From an uncultured Flavobacteriaceae bacterium (GTDB lineage: Bacteria; Bacteroidota; Bacteroidia; Flavobacteriales; Flavobacteriaceae), in assembly GCA_905479625.1 (NCBI GenBank), contig CAJQNF010000044.1:1-41319 (forward strand): 41,319 nt of DNA. The letters run 5' to 3'. Positions 17,750 to 24,874 of the stretch are shown here, one piece after another (positions within the stretch are counted from its first letter, which is position 1; each line of letters starts with the position of its first letter). The position numbers were made by a program, and so were the translations under genes. The notes below the pieces were generated by a model. That model saw only the letters and a list, made by a program, of their open reading frames with translations, searched no databases and had not been told where the DNA came from.

Positions 17750-18856
17750 CTAGTTGGGCATTAACCTCACAATCCCTAATTGTTCGACTGAAACATAAAT
17801 ATAGCCATCAGGCCCTACCTTGACCGTCCTAACTCTGCCCATTCCTTCCATTAATTTCTCTTCTTTAACCACTTTTCCCTTGTCCAGAAAAACCAGATTC
17901 AAGTATTGAAATTTTAGAGAACCAACCAAAAGGTTGCCTTTCCAAGCAGGATAGCGATCACTGTTGACAAATGCCATACCACTGGGAGCGATAGAAGGGA
18001 CCCAATAGTGTAAAGGCTGTTCCATTCCCGGAAGGGCACTGTCATCTGTAATCACAGAACCATCGTAATTTATACCGTAGGTGATCACCGGCCAACCATA
18101 GTTTTTACCCGGTTTGATAATATTGATCTCATCTCCTCCCTGTGGGCCGTGCTCATGTGTCCAAATTTCACCTGTATTTGGATTCATTGCCATCCCCTGA
18201 GGATTACGGTGCCCGTATGAGTATACGGCTGCTTTAGCGCCTGCTGTTGCAACAAAAGGATTATCAGAAGGAATACTTCCATCATCATTGAGTCTGTAGA
18301 TCTTTCCCCCGTCGCGGTTTATATCTTGAGGATTCTCGTTTCTGTTACCTCTGTCACCAATAGAAAAGAAAAGATAGCCATTTTTATCAAATTCAAGTCT
18401 AGAACCAAAATGTTGTCCCTTTTTTGTGTTAGGTGTGGCTTTATAAATAACCTCTTTATCGATAAGTTCATTTTCTTTAAGACGGGCTCTCATGATCATA
18501 GTATTGGCTCCTTCATCATTTTCAGTATTCCCCGAAAATGAAAAATAGATCCAGCCATTATTTGCATAATCGGGATGTAATTTCAGGTCCAGTAAGCCTC
18601 CCTGATTTTTATAAACAACTTCAGGCACGCTTTTTATTTCAGTTGTCTCACCATCCTTAAAGAGAAGCATTTTCCCCTCTTGTTCAGCAATAAGAATGGA
18701 TCCATCCGGAAGAAATTCCATACCCCAGGCGATATCCAGCCCGTCAACTACTGTCTCCGCTTTATAACTAAAATCACCATCGCTTTTGAATTCGGTCTTT
18801 TGACATTGGGTGAGAAAAAATGACAAACAAATAATAATGAAGCTAATTTTTTTCAT
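17750..18856 (-). CDS. PQQ-dependent aldose sugar dehydrogenase-like lipoprotein
   Basis: A 368-residue six-bladed beta-propeller of the soluble aldose sugar dehydrogenase (YliI/Asd) family, which oxidises sugars with pyrroloquinoline quinone. A lipoprotein signal is clear (MKKISFIIICLSFFLTQC, lipid-bearing C18). Family segments include VDGLDIAWGMEFLPDGSILI, FGSRLEFDKNGYLFFSIGDR, SYGHRNPQGMAMNPNTGEIW, EHGPQGGDEINIIKPG and NYGWPVITYG; HRNPQG and EHGPQGGDE are the diagnostic motifs with the catalytic His. It is the third gene of a probable operon (33 bp after the TonB receptor). Whether the host makes PQQ cannot be seen here; scavenging is common. Confidence 0.88.
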   Translation of the reverse strand: MKKISFIIICLSFFLTQCQKTEFKSDGDFSYKAETVVDGLDIAWGMEFLPDGSILIAEQEGKMLLFKDGETTEIKSVPEVVYKNQGGLLDLKLHPDYANNGWIYFSFSGNTENDEGANTMIMRARLKENELIDKEVIYKATPNTKKGQHFGSRLEFDKNGYLFFSIGDRGNRNENPQDINRDGGKIYRLNDDGSIPSDNPFVATAGAKAAVYSYGHRNPQGMAMNPNTGEIWTHEHGPQGGDEINIIKPGKNYGWPVITYGINYDGSVITDDSALPGMEQPLHYWVPSIAPSGMAFVNSDRYPAWKGNLLVGSLKFQYLNLVFLDKGKVVKEEKLMEGMGRVRTVKVGPDGYIYVSVEQLGIVRLMPN

Positions 18857-18889
18857 AATTCAAGTATTTAATTTCAAAGGTACAATTTT

Positions 18890-21175
18890 TCAGAATGAAT
18901 ATTTAAGGTTGAGACTTGCATAATAATTCACGGGGGTCCCGGGGTAGTAGTACCTTGGGGCATTGTTTCCGAAACTACCGGCATTTATTTGAAGCATAGA
19001 GGCGTATTTTTCATCGAAAATATTGTTTATCCCAATTTGGGCATCTAACTGAATATGGCTTCCGAACTCTTTTTTGAATCCGGTTTTTAAATTGACCAAT
19101 TGGTAACTATCTGCATAGATACTATTGTCATCCCTTAAGGGGATCTCACCGATATACTGATAATTTAAAAATGCATAAATCCCAAAGGAAGTATTCAAGT
19201 GCAGTTGGGTAAAGAAAGTTTTGTCCGGAACACCCGTCAAGTCATTCCCGGAATAGTCATCATCGAGATCCTGAAATTCCTCGAAAGTATAATTATTCAA
19301 ACTAAAAGAATTGGAATGGCTTAACTGTAATTGTTTTTTGTTGATCAAAAAATAATTCAATGCAATTTCAAGACCTTTATGTATGGTGTTACCCGCATTG
19401 ACTCCAATAAACTGATCATCTCCGGTTCTTCGCGCTACCAATAGGTTGTCGATGTTCATCAGGTACAAGGAAATTTCATAGTTAAAGATATTTTTGATCA
19501 CCTTTCCGCGGCTGCCAATTTCATAATTCCAACCTGTTTCAGGCTCAATGTTATTGTTGATCAGCCCATCAGGTAAGAGTGTTTCTTCAAGTTTGGGTGG
19601 AGAGAATCCATGACTCACAGTAGCAAAGATCATGCTCTTTTGGTCCAACTGATAAGTAAGGCCAATTTTTGGTGATAAGATTGCGTCAAAACGATAATCC
19701 CCTGAAAAATCATCACTACCTTGATTAAAATTATCATCCAGGGTATAGGCCGTTTGATTCAAATTTAAGCCAAAATCAATAAGAAACTTGGGAGATAAGT
19801 GATACTTAGCTTCCATAAACAAATTAAAATAAGATCTCTTTTCCTTAAAATCACTTAATAATGAACCTTGTATACTTCCGGTTCCCGGAGGGTAATCCTG
19901 ATAGAGATTTTCGTAGGTTTTTAGAAGGTTCAGGTCATTAAAAAATTCAAGCCCTGCTGTCCATTGAAAATCTTTTTGCCACAATTCGGTCTTTTGAATA
20001 AACCTGGTTCTTAACCCTATGGCATTTGTTCCTTGTTCAAGCATATTAAAGGGTCTCGCCTCATAAGAATCCAGCAAGTTGGCGAAAATACTACTGACCT
20101 GTTTTGACTTTTGATTGTATTCATGTTGCCATGACAAACCCAGCAAAAATTTAGAATAATCCTCAAACCCCTTTGACTGACCCCAGGTAAAGGCGGCTTT
20201 TGTGGGGTCATTTATATAGTCATTTTCATTTAGAGAACTTGGGATATAGGCCTTTAGGTTGATGAAATTGGCCAGTACGTTAAGGTTGTTCTTCTCATTT
20301 AGATAGTGATTTGAAGCTAATGTGATCGTTTGCCTGTCTAACTCATTATTTTCTCTGTAGCCATCACTATGGGTATTGGAATAGGTTAGTTTCGCCGTAT
20401 TGGTTTTGTTCCCTAAGTTGGTATTGATCCAAAATTTTTGCAGGCCATAGGAACCGAAAGTATAGGCAGTTTGTACAGATTGAGTATCGAAAAGGCCTTT
20501 ATCGGCAATGAGTTGAATACTACCTCCCAACCCCGCTCCATATAGACTCGATGAAGGACCTTTAAGGATCTCCATTCGGGCAATGCCCTGCAACTCAATA
20601 TCCTCAATAGTTGTTTCTCCCGAACCATTGGTGAGCGGTATATCTTCGTAATAGGCCCTGATCTTGCTTGTACCAAATAAATTTCTTGAACCAATACCTC
20701 TTATGGTGATCCTGTTTGTATTCAGCGCACCGTTATGCATATAGACACCAGGAACGCTGTTGAGAATTGGCGCAATATTGACACCGTCATTGCTGTTGAT
20801 TTGACTTTCAGAAATCACCGAGATGGCAGCAGAAATCTCTTTTAATTCACTTTGGAAGTGGCTTGATTTTATAATCACTTCTGCAAGTTCTAAAGGTTTT
20901 TCAGTCATTTCAACAAGAATGAATTTAGCTCCCTGAATAGAAATTGTTTTGGAAATAAATCCTGGTTTGTCAAAGGTATAGGTCCCTGCCGATGTTAGTG
21001 AAAAAAGACCATTGTAGTCCGAAATATTGACTTGAACGCCATTGCTGTCTGTTATCTCAACTTCTTGAACTGCTAATTTATGCTCACTGCTGATGACCTT
21101 TCCCTTTAAAGATTGACTGCTTAGGGACGATGAGATCGAAATAAGAAATAAAATGAATAGAAGACGATGTCGCAT
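18890..21175 (-). CDS. TonB-dependent outer-membrane receptor
   Basis: A 761-residue ligand-gated outer-membrane channel that takes up a scarce ligand using TonB energy. Order: signal peptide (1-20), a carboxypeptidase-regulatory-like domain (about 21-95, LKGKVISSEHKLAVQEVEI), plug domain (about 113-225, SAAISVISESQINSND, RGIGSRNLFGTSKIRAYYED, LKGPSSSLYGAGLGGSI), then a 22-strand barrel ending in the aromatic terminus LKYSF. Sequence near the C-terminus (GIGNIFDEKYASM-like) is typical of metal-chelate and vitamin-type receptors, as opposed to SusC, and there is no SusD partner. The ligand is unknown; copper, iron-chelate or a small organic compound are all possible. It sits 27 bp after the M14 peptidase and 33 bp before the sugar dehydrogenase. 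Confidence 0.93.
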   Translation of the reverse strand: MRHRLLFILFLISISSSLSSQSLKGKVISSEHKLAVQEVEITDSNGVQVNISDYNGLFSLTSAGTYTFDKPGFISKTISIQGAKFILVEMTEKPLELAEVIIKSSHFQSELKEISAAISVISESQINSNDGVNIAPILNSVPGVYMHNGALNTNRITIRGIGSRNLFGTSKIRAYYEDIPLTNGSGETTIEDIELQGIARMEILKGPSSSLYGAGLGGSIQLIADKGLFDTQSVQTAYTFGSYGLQKFWINTNLGNKTNTAKLTYSNTHSDGYRENNELDRQTITLASNHYLNEKNNLNVLANFINLKAYIPSSLNENDYINDPTKAAFTWGQSKGFEDYSKFLLGLSWQHEYNQKSKQVSSIFANLLDSYEARPFNMLEQGTNAIGLRTRFIQKTELWQKDFQWTAGLEFFNDLNLLKTYENLYQDYPPGTGSIQGSLLSDFKEKRSYFNLFMEAKYHLSPKFLIDFGLNLNQTAYTLDDNFNQGSDDFSGDYRFDAILSPKIGLTYQLDQKSMIFATVSHGFSPPKLEETLLPDGLINNNIEPETGWNYEIGSRGKVIKNIFNYEISLYLMNIDNLLVARRTGDDQFIGVNAGNTIHKGLEIALNYFLINKKQLQLSHSNSFSLNNYTFEEFQDLDDDYSGNDLTGVPDKTFFTQLHLNTSFGIYAFLNYQYIGEIPLRDDNSIYADSYQLVNLKTGFKKEFGSHIQLDAQIGINNIFDEKYASMLQINAGSFGNNAPRYYYPGTPVNYYASLNLKYSF

Positions 21176-21202: not shown

Positions 21203-22660
21203 TTATTTAACAACGGCATTTTTCACATTGTTTTTGTTTTCCTTTAAATAATAAACAAACCCGTTGACAACCGCATAAACAACTTGGTCATTTTTTTTTA
21301 GTAAAAAAGTCGTGTTAGTTCCCAGATTGATTGGAGACGCAGGTAAAGTGTTACTTTTAGGGATCATAATCTTTTTTATGTCAATGATATTCATGGGCAT
21401 AGTAGTAAATTTGATTTCTTGTGGCATGTCGTTGATACTTACAGAAGTATATCCTTGTGCAAGAAGCGTTGAAAAATCAAGCTCCATAAATTCTTCAAAA
21501 TCATTGAGTATTTTCGGATAAGTTTCTCCAACCTTGAATGTGAAACCAGTCGCATCCAAATTTTTATAACCGTAATGGGTTGACAGATCCCCGATGTCAC
21601 TAATTTTGCCCAGATAATAGAAATCACTGTGATTCTTGTTTTCAATCTCATGATGATTGATGCCCAGGTCAACGGTAAAATCTAAACCTAAATAAGAAAA
21701 AGTCAGGTTGTCAATTTTCAGATCGAATAGTTTAAGATCATTCTTTGGTATCGAAAGGTATTTGTCAAGGCCTGTAGTTAAATAACTTTGAGTACCAATG
21801 ATCTCAATGGTGGATAAGATGCCCACATAGTTCAGTTTACGAATGAATTGCTTTTCAGGATCATCAAAATGCCCTCCTGATTCTATAAGTATCGTACTTG
21901 TGCCCCATTTTTGCATATTGTCACCAAAGGCTCTCGGTTCGAATTCATCTGAATATCTTCCGACCTGACCCCGGGCATACCTTTGAAGTACACTGTTCAA
22001 TTTAGCGATGACTCTCATGGCATCTCCTCTGGTCTGGTTGATGTCTTTTTCAACATTAAACGCCGGAGCTAAAACTGAAATAGTTGCAGGTTTCGAAGTT
22101 TGCTTTGCGTTATAGTATTTACTCTGGTCGTGAAGATTGAACCCGAAGTCTGCATCAAGACTGTCACGAACCTTTTTCAGTAATTGTGACTCTGGCGATT
22201 GAAGCTTTAGGGCATCTCTGTTAATATCTATCCCAATAGCGTTGCGTCTTGTAAATAGTTCAGCACCATCAGGGTTTAACATCGGAATAAAATGAACTGT
22301 CACATTTTTTAAAATGGTTTTATTTGTTTTCAAATAATTGATCATATCAAATATAGAGGCAGTCGCCGTAGATTCATCGCCGTGCATTTGAGACCATAAT
22401 AATATTTGTGTTTCTCCCTCTCCAACGCTGATCATAGATATATTACGCCCCTGTATGGACCTTCCCAGAACGGTAATTTCAAAATCTTTTCGCCCCTTGA
22501 GACTATCGATCAATGGTTCAATATCCTGATGTTTAAATCGGCGGCTATCAATCGAGACTTCGCGGAAATCGTCGTATGATTGGAAGAGTTGTTTGTCGAG
22601 AGATTCTTTTTGAGCGTATCCCATTAACGGGAGTAAAAGAAGCAAAAAATATTTGGTCAT
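21203..22660 (-). CDS. secreted M14-family zinc carboxypeptidase
   Basis: A 485-residue exported metallopeptidase of the M14 carboxypeptidase family. It has a signal peptide (1-16, PLMGYAQ). Zinc ligands are H93 and E96 (QMHGDESTAT) and H177 (GFNLHDQ); the substrate-binding NRD has R149, and the catalytic Glu is E260 in ILIESGGH. The fold ends about residue 290; the last 190 residues form an extra beta-rich part with no motif I can name. It probably trims peptides or cell-wall peptides in the periplasm or at the surface. It is the first gene of a putative operon with the TonB receptor and the sugar dehydrogenase. The amidase remnant lies upstream. Confidence 0.88.
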   Translation of the reverse strand: MTKYFLLLLLPLMGYAQKESLDKQLFQSYDDFREVSIDSRRFKHQDIEPLIDSLKGRKDFEITVLGRSIQGRNISMISVGEGETQILLWSQMHGDESTATASIFDMINYLKTNKTILKNVTVHFIPMLNPDGAELFTRRNAIGIDINRDALKLQSPESQLLKKVRDSLDADFGFNLHDQSKYYNAKQTSKPATISVLAPAFNVEKDINQTRGDAMRVIAKLNSVLQRYARGQVGRYSDEFEPRAFGDNMQKWGTSTILIESGGHFDDPEKQFIRKLNYVGILSTIEIIGTQSYLTTGLDKYLSIPKNDLKLFDLKIDNLTFSYLGLDFTVDLGINHHEIENKNHSDFYYLGKISDIGDLSTHYGYKNLDATGFTFKVGETYPKILNDFEEFMELDFSTLLAQGYTSVSINDMPQEIKFTTMPMNIIDIKKIMIPKSNTLPASPINLGTNTTFLLKKNDQVVYAVVNGFVYYLKENKNNVKNAVVK

Positions 22661-22687
22661 GATTTATGATTTGTCAGGAACGGGCTC

Positions 22688-22916
22688 CTAATTTAAATTG
22701 GCGGTTGATTTTCTAATGGTATCTATAAAGTCCTTTCCAGGATCGGTTTTTTCTGTTCTGTATCCTTTATCGATTTCCAGCCATAGTCGTCTCAGGAAGC
22801 AGTCGGTATATTTTTCCATCTTGGTCCACTAGAAATTGAGCGGATACATTCAGCGGGCTGGCATCTATTCTTTGGTTGGCAACTAATTTAGTTAATTTTA
22901 ATTGTATGAGACGCAT
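22688..22916 (-). pseudogene. decayed N-acetylmuramoyl-L-alanine amidase (internal deletion plus frameshift)
   Basis: No intact gene fits this gap, but the minus strand keeps pieces of an Amidase_2-type enzyme. From ATG 22916 one frame reads 49 codons including PLNVSAQFLVDQDGKIYRLL then PE, the usual core before the catalytic region, and hits a stop at 22767-22769. Another frame, beginning within the last codons of the first, reads LWLEIDKGYRTEKTDPGKDF and ends in a normal stop at 22688-22690, matching the usual C-terminal end of this family. The 70-80 residues that normally lie between, with zinc ligands, are missing. The 5' part is also lost or broken; a weak signal-peptide-like stretch (KIKLLLVAVIIFLP) in a third frame runs from about 22970 to 22923. 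The rest of the gap to 23074 shows nothing else except the hydroxylase promoter. Confidence 0.75.
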
Positions 22917-23074: not shown

Positions 23075-23102
23075 TTGAAAAATTTAAAATTGCATAACTT
23101 TA
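23075..23102 (+). promoter_or_regulatory. promoter of aromatic amino acid hydroxylase (TTG-N17-TAACTTTA)
   Basis: TTG at 23075-23077, 17 bp, then TAACTTTA at 23095-23102 (one mismatch to TAnnTTTG). Transcription would begin near 23109, only about 8 bp before the ATG at 23117. A longer frame that opens with this same TTG is thereby unlikely. Confidence 0.55.
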
Positions 23103-23116
23103 CAAAAAGGCCTAAA

Positions 23117-24874
23117 ATGAAGCGAGAACACCTTTCAAATTCAGTTTTGGAAAAACTTCCATATCACCTGAGAGATTTTATCTTAAAGCAGCCATATGAT
23201 GAATATACGGCTCAGAACCAAGCGGTCTGGCGCTATGTGATGAGGAAGAATATAGATTATTTAGGAAGGGTAGCTCATGAATCTTATATTCCAGGTTTGG
23301 CTAAGGCCGGAATTTCAATTGAGGAAATTCCAAGAATGGAAGGAATGAACAGGATCTTAAAAGAAATTGGCTGGGCCGCTGTTTCGGTAGATGGCTTTAT
23401 TCCGCCTAATGCCTTTATGGAATTTCAGGCTTTCAATACCCTGGTGATCGCAGCCGACATCAGAACGATTGATCATATAGAATATACACCAGCTCCTGAC
23501 ATTATACACGAAGCAGCAGGGCATGCTCCGATTATAGCCAATCCTGAATATGCAGAATACCTTCGCCGCTTTGGAGAGATCGGTTCAAAAGCGATTTCCT
23601 CAGCTAAGGATTTTGAATTGTTCGAGGCAATTAGACATTTATCGATCATTAAGGAGGATCCTGCAACTAGAACAAAAGAAATACAGGAGGCTGAAGAACA
23701 AATAGCTGTAATTTCAGCTAATATGGGAGCTCCGAGTGAAATGTCAGGAATCAGGAATATGCACTGGTGGACAGTTGAATACGGTCTGATTGGGACATTG
23801 AAGCATCCTAAAATTTATGGGGCTGGTCTTCTTTCCTCCATTGGAGAGAGCAAATGGTGTATGGGAAATCAAGTAAAAAAAATTCCCTACACAATAGATG
23901 CAGCCAAGGTTGAATTTGATATCACCAAGCCACAACCACAGCTATTTGTTACCCCAGATTTTGCGCATTTGAGTTTTGTGCTTGAGGAATATGCCAATTC
24001 AATGGCCTTGAGAAAAGGAGGGTTGAAAGGCGTTCAAAAACTGATTCAATCAAAAAATTTGGGCACCATTGAACTGAGTACTGGGATTCAAATTTCAGGT
24101 AAGTTCGCAGAGGTCATTGAAGATGATCGGTCAAGACCTGTCTATATAAAAACAATTGGACCCACAGCGCTTGCCTATAAAAACAAAGAATTGATCGGCC
24201 ATGATAAAAACCATCACAGAGATGGATTTGGATCTCCAGTAGGGAAATTAAAAGGGATCAATTTGGCTATTGAAAATATGTCACCTACTGACCTGGAAGC
24301 CTATGGTATTTATGAAGGCAGGAAGACGAATTTATTATTTGAAGGAGGTGTGCTGGTTGAGGGTGAAATCATTACAGGAAAAAGAAATCTTCAGGGAAAG
24401 ATCATTTTGATTTCATTTAGAAATTGTACTGTCACTTATAAGGAGGAGGTGTTATTCAAGCCCGAATGGGGGATTTATGATATGGTAGTAGGTGAGAATC
24501 TAATTTCAGCTTTTTCAGGTATTGCTGATCCAAATTCCTTCGGTCAACAATTCGAAATTCCTAAAGAAAAAACCCATAAAATATCTTATTCGATAAAGGA
24601 AACGGCGCTGTTTGAGCTGTATGATCAGGTCAGACTGATGCGGAAATCAACTCATATTGATGAAAATGTATTGCAAAAAATATTCGGGCAGCTTATAAAA
24701 AACTACCCGAATGATTGGTTATTGGCGCTCGAAATATACGAATTACTTGGACCTGATCAAATGTTCGAATTTAGAACCGAGGTTACATCATATCTTGAGA
24801 GATTCTGTCATGATGATTCGGTTAAAAATCTCGTTCAGGACGGAATTCGATTGATCGATGCATCAGAGCATTGA
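23117..24874 (+). CDS. aromatic amino acid hydroxylase (phenylalanine 4-monooxygenase type), long form
   Basis: A pterin-dependent iron monooxygenase that hydroxylates phenylalanine, or possibly another aromatic amino acid. Iron ligands are H131 and H136 (PDIIHEAAGHAPI) and E221 (HWWTVEYGLIG); IYGAGLLSSIGES follows, as in animal enzymes. Start at 23117 (MKREHLSNSV) is favoured over the longer frame from TTG 23075 because a promoter occupies that stretch. The protein is 585 residues, about twice the short proteobacterial PhhA. Two extra parts are seen: about 45 more residues between the histidines and the Glu than in human PAH, and a C-terminal extension of nearly 280 residues (from about 305) with no motif I know. 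Long forms occur in Bacteroidota and some Bacillus. It converges on pyk with a 4-bp gap. Substrate not proven. Confidence 0.88.
   Translation: MKREHLSNSVLEKLPYHLRDFILKQPYDEYTAQNQAVWRYVMRKNIDYLGRVAHESYIPGLAKAGISIEEIPRMEGMNRILKEIGWAAVSVDGFIPPNAFMEFQAFNTLVIAADIRTIDHIEYTPAPDIIHEAAGHAPIIANPEYAEYLRRFGEIGSKAISSAKDFELFEAIRHLSIIKEDPATRTKEIQEAEEQIAVISANMGAPSEMSGIRNMHWWTVEYGLIGTLKHPKIYGAGLLSSIGESKWCMGNQVKKIPYTIDAAKVEFDITKPQPQLFVTPDFAHLSFVLEEYANSMALRKGGLKGVQKLIQSKNLGTIELSTGIQISGKFAEVIEDDRSRPVYIKTIGPTALAYKNKELIGHDKNHHRDGFGSPVGKLKGINLAIENMSPTDLEAYGIYEGRKTNLLFEGGVLVEGEIITGKRNLQGKIILISFRNCTVTYKEEVLFKPEWGIYDMVVGENLISAFSGIADPNSFGQQFEIPKEKTHKISYSIKETALFELYDQVRLMRKSTHIDENVLQKIFGQLIKNYPNDWLLALEIYELLGPDQMFEFRTEVTSYLERFCHDDSVKNLVQDGIRLIDASEH

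Follow-up and report, generated by a model that had tools for sequence, protein, structure and literature searches.

A young amidase pseudogene in a conserved amidase–M14 peptidase gene pair of a Lutimonas-related bacterium

The locus and its remnant gene

The whole stretch of DNA (41,319 nucleotides, referred to as the window) is contig 44 of genome G000, which represents a bacterium related to Lutimonas; its genus includes Lutimonas halocynthiae. The evidence for G000 comes from one metagenome-type assembly of 2.67 Mb in 151 contigs, 84% complete. The PF01510 search covered 60 genomes including G000, with 22 in the genus (G000 counted) and 15 from other genera of Flavobacteriaceae.

The remains of a lipoprotein amidase gene lie between an M14 peptidase gene and a divergent aromatic amino-acid hydroxylase gene (Table 1). 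The hydroxylase gene, listed as a reading frame from a TTG at 23075 and with its ATG at 23117, is the upstream neighbour of the remnant and fixes the synteny of the locus. The M14 gene, beside which the preliminary description had correctly placed the remnant, is intact and is the downstream partner in an ancestral amidase–M14 gene pair. Its sole NCBIfam match at E ≤ 0.001 was the murein tripeptide amidase MpaA (E 1.5e-6, 27.4 bits, cut-off 157). A TonB receptor is encoded at 17750–21175 on the minus strand. Its best NCBIfam match was the PQQ receptor PqqU, at 202.6 bits far under the cut-off of 1200, and the gene after it, in the same orientation, encodes a glucose/sorbosone dehydrogenase (PF07995), a member of a family that uses PQQ. 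The two are possibly a PQQ-uptake and PQQ-enzyme pair.

Table 1. Features of the amidase remnant and its neighbours, in window coordinates
Feature	Position	Strand	Description
Amidase remnant	22664–22882	minus	Remains of lipoprotein Amidase_2 (PF01510) gene
Frame 1	22767–22916	minus	49 aa; contains NVSAQFLVDQDG
Frame 2	22688–22819	minus	43 codons, ATG start; contains GYRTEKTDPGK; ends 27 nt before M14 start
Promoter-like box TAAATTAG	22883–22890	minus	Abuts 5′ end of remnant; like flavobacterial −7 element TAnnTTTG
Amidase middle remnant (VANQRIDASPLNVSAQFLVDQDGKIYRLLPETT)	22785–22882	minus	5′ boundary good to a few bases
Frame-shifting deletion junction ATGGC	22780–22784	minus	From alignment with intact G004
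Amidase C-terminal remnant (LEIDKGYRTEKTDPGKDFIDTIRKSTANLN)	22664–22779	minus	Premature TAG 22690–22688; old stop TAA 22666–22664
M14-family zinc peptidase	21203–22660	minus	Intact, 485 aa; PF00246 E 2.5e-14
Aromatic amino-acid hydroxylase	23117–24874	plus	NF010657 822.7 bits, cut-off 346

Two minus-strand frames had previously been read as pieces of an amidase, and both were recovered when the intact ortholog from G004 (221 residues) was used as a query (E 1.5e-9 and 6.3e-10). The M14 peptidase of G004 is 78% identical to that of the window, as is that of the named record L066, whose amidase protein does not differ from the one in G004. Comparison with PF01510, which had been proposed as a check, gave a match for one piece: frame 1 matched the family with E 7.9e-4 and 20.2 bits, under the 26-bit cut-off that the G004 ortholog passes with 75.9 bits, and frame 2 alone matched no Pfam family at E ≤ 10. 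The G004 protein detected nothing else in G000 at E ≤ 10. Given these E-values for the only matches in the genome, the similarity is not due to chance, and whole-genome E-values together with synteny rule out a chance match. We also rejected a relocated second copy. The intact copy that the preliminary description had suggested looking for elsewhere was absent from G000 in the PF01510 search, and the G004 protein found the window pieces only. The first piece aligns to residues 91–130 of the query and is thus the middle of the protein, not its N-terminal core as first described. By our reading, the first 11 residues of frame 1 would be leader sequence.

Lesions were seen by alignment with the intact genes of G004, G009 and G007. 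An upstream deletion of about 270 nt (in G004 coordinates), between the promoter-like box and the middle of the gene, took the start codon, the signal peptide and the first His motif, VHWT. A middle deletion of 194 nt, measured against both G009 and G004, removed the motifs GIENVGG and GHYEY. A frame shift at this join had been described, and it is real, but the loss amounts to 64 codons and 2 bases rather than the 70–80 residues estimated. Three codons are absent between RID and LNV. Near the C-terminal end, the TAG takes the place of a residue that is Trp in 13 of 15 aligned intact proteins. This premature stop is what had been taken for the lower bound of the feature, and it had been missed as a lesion, as had the upstream deletion. 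In the intact G004 gene, the stretch that is missing here is bounded on each side by a copy of the junction word ATGGC, and the 194 nt may have been lost by slippage between these direct repeats.

The zinc ligands of Escherichia coli AmiD are H50, H166 and D176, as given in an excerpt of PMC5543032. The motifs VHWT (or a close form), GHxEY and KxDPG were present in 15 of 15 intact proteins (13 from the genus, G022 and G032) and are taken for the two His ligands and the Asp ligand; two further proteins in this test had been picked by two of the same motifs. With ligands assigned by motif, both His ligands appear to be lost from the remnant and the Asp to remain. The earlier statement that the ligands went with the middle is therefore right for GHYEY only: VHWT was removed by the upstream deletion, and KTDPG, the Asp motif, survives. 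A functional Amidase_2 protein has the His, His and Asp ligands in one open frame, and of these the remnant keeps KTDPG alone. Similarity to the family, a syntenic intact ortholog and disabling lesions were all found, and the remnant is an Amidase_2 pseudogene.

A gene that is intact in the organism could look broken if pieces had been dropped during assembly, and G000 is both fragmented (151 contigs) and incomplete. We regard this as extremely improbable. Several separate lesions (two large deletions, the three-codon loss and the stop) occur inside 220 nt, and the junction word has 5 bases only, too short for graph collapse in the usual assemblers. Relatives without the amidase at the same place include G012 and G014, which are listed as 100% complete.

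Intact relatives and the ancestral gene pair

Near relatives, where the preliminary description had advised looking, did carry the gene at the same position. An open lipoprotein amidase gene adjoins M14 in 13 of the 22 genomes of the genus (G001–G009, G016, G019, G020 and G021), and the hydroxylase is on its other side in 11 of the 13. The hydroxylase was not found in G016, and G021 gave a short weak match only. M14 was matched in 21 of the 22 genomes. Some M14 matches contained in-frame stops, one TAA in G007 and two in G018 (loci L036 and L038); these could reflect errors of sequencing or a decay that has reached M14 too.

Among the 15 genomes from other genera, G022, G032 and G034 carry a PF01510 gene beside an M14 gene 54–55% identical to the window's. 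The remaining 12 had no PF01510 match, and their M14 match was weaker (E 2.8e-71 or worse) or absent. In named records, an amidase stood directly upstream of M14 in 21 of the best 80 of 590 M14 loci. We take 14 of these best 80 to be Flavobacteriaceae from outside the genus, and all of the 14 except L085 carry the upstream amidase (13 loci). Locus L072, of uncertain placement, also has it.

Intact orthologs have a lipobox-type signal peptide by eye (MLKFIPFISLIGLFLISCNS in G004, MKKTYLLILLGTIILTSCNS in G005), and their family suggests that they cut the MurNAc-L-Ala bond. The distance from the amidase stop to the M14 start, counted as the first Met of the M14 frame, ranged between −25 and +65 nt across 15 loci (13 in the genus, G022 and G032), so the pair looks cotranscribed. 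The ancestral amidase would have been a lipoprotein N-acetylmuramoyl-L-alanine amidase whose gene came first in a unit of two, ahead of the M14 peptidase gene, and the two enzymes may have acted sequentially on cell-wall peptides.

The intact G004 gene has the box TAAATTAG too, immediately before the amidase start. A −7 element TAnnTTTG is given for flavobacterial promoters in an excerpt of PMC9723704, and the box is a probable variation of it, with a predicted promoter function. In shuffled 200-nt leaders, TAAATT[AC]G appeared in 2.2% and the looser TAnnTT[TCA]G in 21%. The loose form was near the start in 7 of 15 intact leaders, only further upstream in two (G005 and G006), and absent from six (G002, G003, G016, G021, G022 and G032), with the start codon uncertain in G003, G006, G016 and G021. 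Given these frequencies in shuffled sequence, the leader scars described below are convincing through shared flanking bases and not through the box alone.

Age and recurrence of the loss

The decay is recent, as the preliminary description had proposed. None of 52 remnant residues was unseen in 16 intact segments (13 from the genus, G022, G032 and L072). The 52 residues are the well-aligned parts, without RIDASP, the tail after STAN with its stop and the three-codon gap; this choice leans towards freshness, and the omitted edges are less alike. The motif pattern used to widen the sample caught two of 15 extra amidases from other loci, one of them usable. When each of 15 intact segments was left out in turn, 0–8 residues were unseen. 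In a neutral simulation the probability of no unseen residue was 0.125 at a divergence of 0.02, 0.037 at 0.03 and 0.008 at 0.05, supporting a bound near 0.03 on the divergence since the loss. Between G000 and its nearest genome, G013, dS reaches 1.05 in M14 and 1.47 in the hydroxylase, which places the death of the gene long after the split of these lineages. The pN/pS of the remnant over the 52 codons was 0.15–0.33 against nine intact genes, and 15 intact pairs gave 0.18–0.29. Such values, like those of a living gene, would suit a fresh loss and would equally fit selection on the pieces.

Five other genomes of the genus (G010, G012, G014, G015 and G017) have the hydroxylase and M14 genes adjacent with no amidase match between them, and PF01510 was absent from each genome as a whole at E ≤ 0.001. 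The genus thus divides into six genomes that have lost the gene (these five and G000), 13 with an intact gene and three in neither class (G011, G013 and G018).

Some of these genomes retain scars. The sequence TCTAAATTAGCCGGAA, which precedes the amidase start in G004, stands directly before M14 in G012, G014 and G017. G015 has kept a leader (TAAATTCGCAAG) and first codons like those of G009, and the amidase start left there forms a frame of 22 codons that extends over the M14 start codon. G010 has TAAATTAG; none was found in its tree neighbour G005, and comparison of these two leaders revealed no homologous scar. Global alignments of G005 with G010 and of G004 with G012 were mostly noise outside short stretches and were not used there.

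In a tree built from M14 and the hydroxylase, G015 grouped with the intact G009 (100) and G010 with the intact G005 (100). G012, G014 and G017 formed a clade (100) neighbouring G000 and G013 (87). Because the loss in G000 is young, this tree implies at least four separate amidase losses in the genus, at least three of them beyond G000, if inheritance was vertical and the gene was not regained.

The three unclassified genomes differ from one another. In G013, the contig carrying M14 breaks off at about codon 14 of that gene, and the one carrying the hydroxylase continues for 349 nt beyond the hydroxylase match before it stops. This hydroxylase contig (L061) has a homologous leader followed by the 3′ end of an unrelated frame and then the contig end; the sole Pfam match of this frame was GABP-alpha, under the cut-off (E 0.026). 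G013 may have undergone an insertion or rearrangement at this locus. A loss common to G000 and G013 is unlikely because of the freshness bound. In G018 the gene before M14 is a different one, and the contig begins in a GC-rich, foreign-looking stretch. No M14 was found in G011, whose one PF01510 match lies inside a longer frame (544 aa); the second PF01510 matches of G007, G016 and G021 are also in longer frames.

The preliminary description had suggested that decay possibly followed functional replacement, with another enzyme taking over the work of the amidase. One Amidase_3 gene is present in G000 and could cover part of the activity. Every one of the 22 genomes of the genus has Amidase_3, whatever the state of the lipoprotein amidase; 19 of them, among which are the six that lost the gene, have a single match, and extra matches occur only in G016, G018 and G021. 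Replacement by Amidase_3 was rejected, as the losers show no gain of it, and none of the six has a second Amidase_2. The S66 carboxypeptidase occurs in 20 of 22 genomes and is absent from G005 and G011, neither a known loser; AnmK occurs in 16 of 22 genomes, and G010 is the only loser without it. No gain replacing the amidase was seen in the few families checked (Amidase_2, Amidase_3, S66 and AnmK). Replacement is accordingly improbable as an account of the decay, and standing redundancy with Amidase_3 is possible.

The scar might also have been put to new use, with the 43-codon frame 2 or the transcript leader controlling or coupling M14 translation. The frame starts with ATG and ends 27 nt ahead of the M14 start, and in G015 the leftover frame reaches across the M14 start codon. 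The young remnant has had too little time for much shaping, and no recognisable amidase codons are left in G012, G014 and G017, which makes this reading highly unlikely.

We consider it very probable that the window holds a dead amidase gene, recently destroyed by deletions, in a conserved amidase–M14 unit. In the G000 lineage the 5′ and middle deletions, the three-codon loss and the premature stop destroyed the amidase recently. The M14 gene and the upstream promoter-like box were kept, so M14 is presumably still transcribed across the scar. Because the gene has gone at least four times under vertical inheritance, amidase activity may have become dispensable in the genus, and we infer that dispensability was the cause of the loss. 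A further, rather doubtful suggestion is that in the Lutimonas group the amidase was selectively and repeatedly removed from an old amidase–M14 operon while the promoter region and M14 were kept, the loss being favoured and M14 having a role of its own. If so, an exposed amidase might, for example, have been a liability, or the cells might have given up cutting whole wall material in favour of using free peptides.

Comparison with known systems

Like AmiD, an outer-membrane lipoprotein amidase with PF01510, the intact G004 ortholog combines a lipobox-type signal peptide with a PF01510 domain. Unlike AmiD, the window copy is dead: its start, signal peptide and both His motifs were deleted, and KTDPG is left. 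Similarity of the intact protein to solved amidases was weak (best E 3.5e-6). The 1,6-anhydro-MurNAc-L-Ala amidase AmpD (NF008758) was the sole NCBIfam match of the intact G004 protein at E ≤ 0.001 (E 4.2e-8), but at 32.7 bits the protein lies far under the cut-off of 143 bits. AmpD is cytoplasmic, whereas the intact orthologs carry a lipoprotein-type signal.

Titles and abstract beginnings among the literature matches listed contained nothing on this locus. At a single locus, one genus presents the gene in three states: intact, newly broken and completely excised. Such a natural series can be used to ask why the amidase becomes dispensable while the neighbouring M14 peptidase does not. The locus shares with ordinary bacterial pseudogenes, and with the loss of one gene from an operon, a frame-shifting deletion between short repeats, a premature stop, syntenic intact orthologs and full deletion elsewhere. 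What sets it slightly apart is only that the loss happened at least four times within one genus, assuming vertical inheritance, and that the downstream partner was retained. This real and young pseudogene in a conserved gene pair is a new instance of an ordinary kind of gene loss.
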